This document shows, one piece after another, positions 15,838-40,405 of a stretch of DNA of 49,036 bases. The stretch lies in NCBI GenBank assembly GCA_016873845.1, contig VGVX01000010.1, positions 1-49,036 on the forward strand, written 5' to 3'. Both the position numbers and the translations under genes were made by a program. Position 1 is the stretch's first letter. Each line of letters starts with the position of its first letter. The notes beneath the pieces were generated by a model. The model was not told the DNA's origin, ran no database searches, and saw nothing but the letters and a program-made list of their open reading frames with translations. Source of the stretch: Ignavibacteria bacterium. Lineage in GTDB: Bacteria; Bacteroidota; Ignavibacteria; Ch128b.

Positions 15838-16335
15838 TTAATTAAATAATTCTTCTTTTGTGATTCCACGTTTAATAGAAACTGAATTTGCATCATGCAA
15901 GTTCATCAAAGCGTTTAACGTTGCTTTAACTGTATTATGCGGATTTGATGAACCAAGTGACTTCGTTAAGACATCTTGTACACCTGCCGATTCGAGTACG
16001 GCACGAACACCGCCACCAGCAATTAATCCTGTACCTGGAGTAGCAGGCTTTAATAACACTTTGGCTGCACCAGCTTTTCCAATAATAGTATGAGGGATGG
16101 TGCCTTTATATTTATAAACTCGTACAACATTCTTTTTGGCATCATCGATTCCTTTTGAAATTGCATCGGTTACTTCATTTGCTTTGCCTAAGCCAACACC
16201 GACAAAACCGGAACCATCGCCCACAACTACAATAGCGTTAAAGCTGAATCTTCTACCACCTTTAACAACTTTTGCAACCCGGTTAATGTGTACAACTCGT
16301 TCTTTTAAGTTTTCTAAATTAATTGTTTTACTCAT
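15838..16335 (-). CDS. rpsE: 30S ribosomal protein S5
   Basis: S5 helps translational accuracy and lines the mRNA entry channel. The 165 residues show the double-stranded-RNA-like N-domain ([19 protein letters not shown]) and the C-domain ([22 protein letters not shown]). The ATG is 27 bases after the 3' end of an embedded tRNA-Gln. GGAG lies in that short gap, so S5 can still be translated after the tRNA is cut out. Confidence 0.98.
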
Positions 16336-16362
16336 ATTAAAATATCATTACTCCGTTATTTG

Positions 16363-16433
16363 CTGCCGGGAGAGGATTCGAACCTCTACGTACGGCTCCA
16401 AAGGCCGCTGTCCTACCATTAGACGACCCGGCA
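16363..16433 (-). tRNA. tRNA-Gln (anticodon TTG) inside the spc operon
   Basis: The minus strand folds as a full cloverleaf. The acceptor is TGCCGGG/CCCGGCA including the U1-A72 pair typical of glutamine tRNAs, the D-arm is GTCT/GGAC, and the anticodon stem GCGGC/GCCGT encloses CTTTGGA with anticodon TTG. The T-arm is AGAGG-TTCGAAT-CCTCT, and the discriminator is G. CCA is not encoded. It sits 22 bases after rplR and 27 before rpsE in the same direction, so its maturation would cut the polycistronic mRNA. Confidence 0.95.
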
Positions 16434-16455
16434 ATGCGTCCATTCACGGCGGACA

Positions 16456-16821
16456 TTAAATTTTCAGACCTCCTTCACGTAAGCCATCAGCTAAAGCTCT
16501 AATTCTCCCGTGATATCTGAATCCGCCTCTATCAAAAATTCCTGTTGAAATTCCTTTACTTATTGCAACTTCTGCTGCTGCTTTACCAACTGCTTTACTT
16601 TTTTCAACTTTATTTTTTATATCCGCAACTTTACTTTTAACATCTTTGCTGATACTTGAAACAGCTAACAAAGTCTTATTCTCCAAATCATCAATAAACT
16701 GAATATAGATTTCATCTAAACTCTTATAAACACTTAATCTCGGTTTTTCAGCTGTACCTTTGATAGTTTTCTTTAATTTCTTTTTAACTCGAATTCGCGA
16801 TTTTGGTTTTTTCTTAATCAT
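16456..16821 (-). CDS. rplR: 50S ribosomal protein L18
   Basis: A 121-residue protein that binds 5S rRNA with L5. It has a basic N-terminus and the conserved end FDRGGFRYHGRIRALADGLREGGLKI, of which the RGGFRYHGR part is diagnostic. It follows rplF by two bases; a tRNA-Gln follows it instead of rpsE directly. Confidence 0.97.
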   Translation of the reverse strand: MIKKKPKSRIRVKKKLKKTIKGTAEKPRLSVYKSLDEIYIQFIDDLENKTLLAVSSISKDVKSKVADIKNKVEKSKAVGKAAAEVAISKGISTGIFDRGGFRYHGRIRALADGLREGGLKI

Positions 16822-38585: not shown

Positions 38586-39011
38586 TTAGCCTTCAACTAA
38601 AATTCCCATGCTTCTTGCAGTCCCTTCGACCATACTCATTGCATGATCAACGTCGTTTGCATTTAAGTCAGGCATTTTCAATGTGGCAATTTCTCTAACT
38701 TGATCTTTTGTAACTTTTGCGACTTTATTTCTATTTGGTTCTGGTGAACCCTTTTCAAGCTTTGCTGCTTTCAATAATAAAATAGAAGCAGGCGGGGTTT
38801 TAGTAATAAATGTAAATGATTTATCCGAATAAACTGTAATCACAACTGGAATGATTAAACCAGCTTTGTCTGAAGTCTTTGCGTTAAACTGCTTGCAAAA
38901 CTCCATTATATTCACACCTTTTTGACCTAATGCCGGTCCAACAGGTGGTGAAGGATTTGCTTGACCTGCAGGAATTTGAAGCTTAATAAAACCAGTTACT
39001 TTCTTTGCCAT
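38586..39011 (-). CDS. rplK: 50S ribosomal protein L11
   Basis: A 141-residue protein of the GTPase-associated centre and the thiostrepton site. The N-domain has [20 protein letters not shown] and the C-domain ends [14 protein letters not shown], both close to consensus. It starts 16 bases after nusG. Confidence 0.98.
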
Positions 39012-39027
39012 AAAAAATTCTCTCTAA

Positions 39028-39561
39028 TTATTTTTCTAACTCAGCTTGAATGAAGTCAAGCTCCACAGGAGTTTTCCTCCCGAAGATGCTAACCATTACT
39101 TTCAGTTTCATTTTTTCGTTATTTACTTCTTGAACGACACCATTGAAATTATTAAATGGTCCATCAATAATTTTAATTGCATCACCAAGACGGAATGGAT
39201 TCTCTAATCTTTCACCCGTAGCTTCTTCTGTAATTTTTCCGAAAATTCGTTTGATTTCATCAGCATGAAGAGTCTGCGGATTATTTCGATTGCCTAAAAA
39301 TCCCATTACCGATGGGACACTAAGAATAATATCTATTATTTTTTTATCCAGGATCGCTTCTATCAAAACATATCCTGGGAAAAAACTTTTGCTCTTACTT
39401 TTCTTCTTTCCGTCTTTTACTTCAAATACTTTTTCTGTAGGGATCAGAACCTGTTTAATGTAATCCTGCAAACTCTGATATTCGATTTCGTTTTCGAGAG
39501 CAGTCTTCACACGTTTCTCATGTCCAGAATAAGTTCTAACTACATACCACTTATGAGTCAT
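39028..39561 (-). CDS. nusG: Transcription elongation/antitermination factor NusG
   Basis: A 177-residue polymerase-binding factor that couples transcription to Rho or to the ribosome through S10. The NGN domain starts KWYVVRTYSGHEKRVKTALE, and the C-terminal KOW domain has IKIIDGPFNNFNGVVQEVN and FGRKTPVELDFIQ. It lies three bases after secE. Confidence 0.98.
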   Translation of the reverse strand: MTHKWYVVRTYSGHEKRVKTALENEIEYQSLQDYIKQVLIPTEKVFEVKDGKKKSKSKSFFPGYVLIEAILDKKIIDIILSVPSVMGFLGNRNNPQTLHADEIKRIFGKITEEATGERLENPFRLGDAIKIIDGPFNNFNGVVQEVNNEKMKLKVMVSIFGRKTPVELDFIQAELEK

Positions 39562-39564
39562 TGC

Positions 39565-39747
39565 CTAGAACAATCCCTTAATTAGATTACTTAATATCAT
39601 ATCAATGGCATAAACAAACGCTGCCAGAATAACACAAGTGACAATAACAATAACTGTCGACTCTCTTAGTTCGTCTTTTGTAGGCCAAGTGACTTTTTTC
39701 ATTTCTTTAACGACATCGGAAAAGAAGTTTATTATTTTTTCTTTCAT
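39565..39747 (-). CDS. secE: Preprotein translocase subunit SecE
   Basis: The short single-helix SecE of 60 residues clamps SecY. An amphipathic N-terminal helix contains KEMKKVTWPTKDELRESTV, the SecE signature, followed by one membrane helix (about residues 31-50). It lies between tRNA-Trp and nusG as in many bacteria. Confidence 0.96.
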   Translation of the reverse strand: MKEKIINFFSDVVKEMKKVTWPTKDELRESTVIVIVTCVILAAFVYAIDMILSNLIKGLF

Positions 39748-39764
39748 ATAAATACCTGTTTGTG

Positions 39765-39838
39765 CACGTCAGGAGGGACTCGAACCCCCAACCTGCGGTT
39801 TTGGAGACCGCTGCTCTAGCCAATTGAGCTACTGACGT
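39765..39838 (-). tRNA. tRNA-Trp (anticodon CCA)
   Basis: The minus strand folds with acceptor ACGTCAG/CTGACGT, anticodon stem GCGGT/ACCGC around CTCCAAA (anticodon CCA), T-loop TTCGAGT and discriminator G. CCA is not encoded at the 3' end. It lies between rpmG and secE, the usual place in this group. Confidence 0.96.
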
Positions 39839-39843
39839 AGAAC

Positions 39844-39993
39844 TTATTTGGTCTCTTTATGAGTTGTATGTTTGTTACACCACTTACAAAACTTTTTAAA
39901 TTCAACTCTGCCGGAGTGCAACTTTTTGTTTTTAGTTGTTGTGTAATTTCTTCTCTTACACTCTGTACATTCTAATGTTATTATATCTCTCAT
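39844..39993 (-). CDS. rpmG: 50S ribosomal protein L33
   Basis: A 49-residue gene between tRNA-Thr and tRNA-Trp. The translation starts [17 protein letters not shown] and has the second cysteine pair in [11 protein letters not shown], the zinc-binding (C+) form of L33. ATG is at 39991-39993 and TAA at 39844-39846. Confidence 0.95.
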
Positions 39994-40016
39994 CGTCTTC
40001 TATTTTTTCTTTGTTG

Positions 40017-40089
<73 letters not shown>

Positions 40090-40157
40090 TTGTTGATTGA
40101 GCGAGTGATTTGATTTCTTTGAAGCGAAGACTTTTTAGAATTCACAATCTCTCTTCG

Positions 40158-40231
40158 AGCGGGAGACGGGACTCGAACCCGCGACCAACAGCTTGGAAGG
40201 CTGTGACTCTAGCCAACTGAGTTACTCCCGC
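40158..40231 (-). tRNA. tRNA-Gly (anticodon TCC)
   Basis: A cloverleaf on the minus strand with acceptor GCGGGAG/CTCCCGC, anticodon stem ACAGC/GCTGT around CTTCCAA (anticodon TCC), T-loop TTCGAGT and discriminator T as is usual for glycine tRNAs. CCA is not encoded. Confidence 0.96.
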
Positions 40232-40321
40232 AGCATGTGCATTACAAAATTTAAAGAACAACTTATCTCACATTATTAGATTGTATTTTAGAGATAAGTT
40301 GAATATTTAGTTAATATGTTG

Positions 40322-40405
40322 TGGGTAGCGAGGGATTCGAACCCCCAAAGGCATTTGCCAACGGATTTACAGTCCGCCCCGGCTCTCCAACTCCGGCGTC
40401 TACCC
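40322..40405 (-). tRNA. tRNA-Tyr (anticodon GTA)
   Basis: An 84-base class II tRNA with a long variable arm. The acceptor is GGGTAG.../...CTACCC (the seventh pair is A-G), the anticodon loop CTGTAAA gives anticodon GTA, the T-arm has TTCGAAT and the discriminator is A. CCA is not encoded. It is the first gene after the candidate promoter. Confidence 0.96.

Follow-up and report, generated by a model that had tools for sequence, protein, structure and literature searches.

The S10-spc-alpha cluster, among the best conserved in bacteria, is a standard model of both gene-order conservation and autoregulation. Operons that mix tRNA and protein genes are also familiar, and the arrangement of tRNA genes, rpmG, tRNA-Trp, secE, nusG and rplK is common in bacteria. 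To our knowledge, a tRNA at the junction of rplR and rpsE is not a common bacterial arrangement. The window, that is, the whole 49,036-nt stretch of Ignavibacteria DNA analysed here, has one at this point. At ~ 38586-40405 on the minus strand the window also carries tRNA-Tyr, Gly and Thr, a 49-aa L33-like ORF (rpmG), tRNA-Trp and then SecE-, NusG- and L11-like ORFs (secE, nusG, rplK), all named by inspection, and this cluster resembles the spc locus in having tRNAs between ribosomal or translation protein genes on one strand. In the Salmonella tufB operon, thrU-tyrU-glyT-thrT-tufB, two of the tRNAs are predicted to be the sole readers of their codons (PMC6134099). The likeness is that tRNA genes and a translation-protein gene share one operon; the difference is that the tufB tRNAs all precede a single protein gene, whereas here a single tRNA sits mid-way in a long ribosomal-protein operon. 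The literature searched, the coverage of which was partial, with most subscription journals outside it, yielded no earlier description of a tRNA placed between rplR and rpsE. The locus is best described as a clade-wide variant of mixed tRNA/protein operons, a kind already known.

The tRNA-Gln(UUG) gene and its setting

The initial annotation described a complete tRNA-Gln(TTG) between rplR and rpsE, co-oriented with both and separated from them by gaps of 22 and 27 nt, and ARAGORN, Rfam and NCBIfam all agree with it. In the direction of transcription the features are as follows.

16456..16821, minus strand: rplR (L18), the upstream neighbour (TIGR00060, NCBIfam, 111 bits)
16434..16455, minus strand: 22-nt gap separating the rplR stop from the tRNA, its 3' edge being where RNase P is expected to cut (from the sequence)
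16363..16433, minus strand: tRNA-Gln(UUG), 71 nt including discriminator G73, with no encoded CCA, a 4-nt variable loop and a Glu-type D arm (ARAGORN, Rfam, covariation, feature table)
16336..16362, minus strand: 27-nt stretch that forms both the trailer of the tRNA and the leader of rpsE, with GGAG upstream of the rpsE start and without a terminator-like site (from the sequence)
15838..16335, minus strand: rpsE (S5), the downstream neighbour (TIGR01021, NCBIfam, 214.5 bits)

Around this site, L6, S8, L30, L15, SecY, Map and IF-1 follow in their usual order by NCBIfam. ARAGORN, which had been proposed as a check, called tRNA-Gln(ttg) at 16362-16433 on the minus strand. The RF00005 match spans 16363-16433 on the same strand at full length with 0 broken pairs (E 1.1e-11), and where a low score would have counted against a tRNA, it reached 63.9 bits over a gathering threshold of 29. 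By its cloverleaf, its UUG anticodon and an Rfam score above gathering, this is a tRNA-Gln(UUG) gene. The CCA end is not encoded, GCAG being followed by CAAAT, and the stability of the tRNA folded with its flanks is unremarkable (z -0.12).

The body is unusual when set against a standard tRNA-Gln, which might point to a tRNA-like regulatory element or a decaying pseudogene in place of a working tRNA. We regard this as highly improbable: not only is the Rfam match full and the anticodon kept, but among homologues 21 pairs are formed in 99.4% of cells, with changes on both sides in 11 pairs as against 5.8 in shuffles, and the genome has no other UUG-Gln gene. The last point comes from a census combining a genome-wide RF00005 search (44 matches) with anticodon calls on the retrieved regions, in a draft genome of 162 contigs and 2.98 Mb that is 98% complete. 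The embedded copy was the only UUG-Gln gene found, and the second tRNA-Gln has a CUG anticodon, which answers the question, raised at the outset, of another Gln(TTG) tRNA. CAA codons are expected to be read by a UUG anticodon only, and CAA makes up 83 of the 114 Gln codons in the 19 genes of this cluster.

Distribution and history within the class

Among the 80 top-ranking rpsE relatives from named genomes and the relatives of the source genome, about half had a tRNA-Gln(UUG) in the spacer, always co-oriented. A covariance model of the tRNA, run on 61 genomes, scored above 91 bits in 22 of them, each time beside rpsE by coordinates, and nearly every genome of that set had just one UUG-Gln tRNA, either of the embedded or of the standard kind. 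In the genomes checked, relatives without the embedded tRNA have a short rplR-rpsE gap and carry their tRNA-Gln(UUG) at another place, mostly in the standard type. The spacer comparison suggested by the initial annotation shows an embedded tRNA shared by relatives, in spacers of very different size. The statement that this point usually has no RNA gene holds for the outgroups tested here; it fails within the organism's own clade, where a tRNA is common at the site.

In a class-wide sample of 294 genomes, the embedded-type tRNA was found at a strict cut-off of E <= 1e-15 in 139 genomes, belonging to 86 of 152 genera, and all 139 matches are co-oriented and lie in the rplR-rpsE spacer. Their placement was established in two ways. 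The 113 compared with listed rpsE coordinates all adjoin rpsE on the same strand, with 0 non-adjacent, and the 26 retrieved as sequence all have the order rplR, tRNA-Gln(UUG), rpsE. A tRNA-Gln(UUG) of diverged sequence occupies this spacer in two further genomes (G221 and G279), additional to the 139. Since the source genome is a draft of many contigs, an assembly artefact or a recent insertion could be suspected; the arrangement recurs class-wide, in 139 to 141 genomes that include single-contig ones, which refutes this, and we give it practically no weight. The placement is an old, inherited arrangement and not the oddity of one genome, a tRNA retained at one point of the spc operon across a dozen family-level groups.

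One genome counted among the 113, G017, has a GUG anticodon in an embedded tRNA-Gln body (L199:3848-3919; G017:C46:24847-24917), and the rest of this genome yielded no UUG-Gln; the change may be either a sequencing error or real.

Mapped on a quickly built tree (134 rows) from ten neighbouring proteins, presence of the tRNA changes 5 times against 44.9 in shuffles, a count that does not separate gain from loss and that owes one of its changes to the G017 locus, where the tRNA body is present with the GUG anticodon. The simplest reading is that the ancestor of the clade gained the tRNA once and that several lineages lost it later; transfer of the operon segment is a possible alternative history. 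Genome G202, in which a long rplR-rpsE spacer holds no tRNA and the tRNA-Gln found elsewhere adjoins a terminator-like hairpin, looks like a late loss. In G162 and G196 (L276, L277) the spacer holds two tRNAs, tRNA-Gln(UUG) and behind it a tRNA-Gln(CUG). Their close similarity is what a local duplication and a change of anticodon would produce. The spacer itself varies widely among relatives, from ~ 14 nt to > 200 nt between the tRNA and rpsE. On the other side, between the rplR stop and the tRNA, most relatives in the table have 4-22 nt, and 25 of the 55 loci tabulated have 4-9 nt.

Probable co-transcription, excision and retention

A promoter of its own, which the initial annotation had named as evidence against its proposal, would make the location of the tRNA incidental to the operon message. 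Promoters within coding sequence do occur, and one inside rplR would suffice. However, no Bacteroidota-type promoter pair was found upstream of the tRNA in 52 loci, and the 150 nt upstream held no excess of promoter-like sites in the same loci (7 seen as against 9.1 in shuffles). In the window, the nearest such site upstream on the minus strand is ~ 270 nt off with 9/12 matches, and the window total equals that of shuffles. These scans used consensus patterns, which a promoter of another pattern inside the rplR coding sequence would escape. A gap of 4-9 nt, where it occurs, is too short to hold an intergenic promoter. Considering these results, a separate promoter appears quite unlikely. No terminator was seen in the tRNA trailers, either across the loci or in the window, and the locus has the layout of a mixed tRNA/ribosomal-protein operon, on one strand with no intervening promoter or terminator signal. 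Since such signals are lacking, co-transcription followed by RNase P excision would be the most likely route, and the transcript must very probably be cut at the tRNA to free it. The claim that the mRNA is cut here is accordingly well grounded as to the embedding, the co-orientation, the missing promoter and terminator signals and the RNase P RNA encoded in the genome (223 bits); the cut itself we infer.

The interpretation that we hold to be likely is that an ancient insertion placed a tRNA-Gln(UUG) in the spc operon, that it serves as the sole reader of CAA, and that it is co-transcribed, excised and retained for co-expression. The pathway could be envisioned as follows. A tRNA-Gln(UUG) with a Glu-type body would have entered the rplR-rpsE spacer in the Ignavibacteria lineage and become the only CAA reader of the genome, displacing the standard tRNA-Gln. 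It would be transcribed within the ribosomal-protein message and cut at its 5' end by RNase P. At the 3' end, RNase Z and CCA addition are probable because CCA is not encoded; the match to the RNase Z family is weak (52 bits, cut-off 293). The message would thus be split into an upstream piece that stops just past rplR and a downstream piece that starts ~ 27 nt before rpsE, with its own Shine-Dalgarno-like GGAG. The likely reason for retention is that an essential, growth-linked tRNA would be co-expressed with ribosomal proteins, and a dedicated regulatory role need not be assumed.

Such a role was proposed in the initial annotation, where excision could set the stability of the message from rpsE to the alpha operon and couple glutamine tRNA supply to ribosome synthesis. 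That the sole UUG-Gln gene is embedded and co-oriented, in a position long conserved, speaks for it, and so do the many relatives with 4-9 nt between the rplR stop and the tRNA, a gap so short that a ribosome stopped at the end of rplR would cover the beginning of the tRNA. Against it stand the wide range of spacer lengths, the two genomes with two tRNAs, and G202, which lost the gene and uses the other tRNA-Gln beside the hairpin. Apart from the tRNA, the locus showed no conserved regulatory element. We therefore consider regulation by excision a doubtful reading. The variable spacer sizes, the two-tRNA version and the one loss argue against tight tuning, and they suit a placement that was inherited and tolerated better than they suit a tuned regulator. 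Moreover, in most relatives in the table the rplR mRNA would be left with a 3' end only 4-22 nt beyond its stop codon, so that the effects of the cut could fall on the upstream half no less than on the downstream half. The genomes with and without the embedded tRNA form a natural set for testing the effect of tRNA maturation on a ribosomal-protein message.

A Glu-type body and a possible route of charging

The distinct tRNA-Gln(UUG) sequences from the retrieved loci fall into 60 with a 4-nt variable loop and 20 with a 5-nt loop. The former, nearly all of them embedded copies, have U11-A24 in 60/60, U13.G22 in 56/60 and G3-C70 in only 2/60, whereas the standard set has C11-G24 with the 5-nt loop in 20/20 and G3-C70 in 17/20. 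The embedded copy and the standard bacterial tRNA-Gln(UUG) have the anticodon arm and U1-A72 in common, the latter present in the window tRNA and in 57 of the 60 distinct 4-nt-loop sequences; they differ in the D arm and variable loop, which are Glu-like in the embedded copy. The D arm is in fact that of the genome's own tRNA-Glu, one base shorter. The published determinants for GluRS are U11-A24, the U13-G22:A46 triple and the absence of residue 47, while G3-C70 is among those for GlnRS and U1-A72 is an amidotransferase element (PMC9976931, a review). Most embedded copies have G46 and not the A46 of the published triple, and the window tRNA has C3-G70 in place of G3-C70. As G3-C70 is the E. 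coli determinant, and tRNA identity rules may differ between phyla (PMC3927822), this departure bears on the charging route and not on the status of the gene, which is a tRNA-Gln by its anticodon.

Taken together, the Glu-type determinants and the retained U1-A72 make charging by GluRS to Glu-tRNA, followed by conversion by GatCAB, plausible. GlnRS and GatB are both encoded in the genome (G000:C1:60708-62276 and G000:C91:4485-5903), giving two possible routes to Gln-tRNA. The presence of GlnRS was considered as an explanation of the body type but does not follow it: group f13 has the embedded tRNA without GlnRS, and in groups f2, f5 and f8 GlnRS occurs alongside the standard tRNA. With GlnRS encoded here, and its occurrence not following the body type, the charging route is conjectural. 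The unusual body suggests that the embedded tRNA displaced the standard tRNA-Gln. A more far-reaching proposal, which we put forward tentatively and think improbable as a whole, is that the spc operon acquired a Glu-type tRNA-Gln, which took the place of the ancestral one in much of the class and is charged through Glu-tRNA and GatCAB despite GlnRS, with its excision linking CAA decoding capacity to ribosomal-protein output. The Glu-type body of the embedded tRNA-Gln is also a test case for how charging routes change.

Exceptions in which a tRNA with the 4-nt loop lies outside the spc operon occur in G008 and G202. In G005, a second tRNA-Gln(UUG) is found among three tRNAs in a stretch without a long ORF (L320, G005:C5:84600-85700), which is possibly of phage origin.
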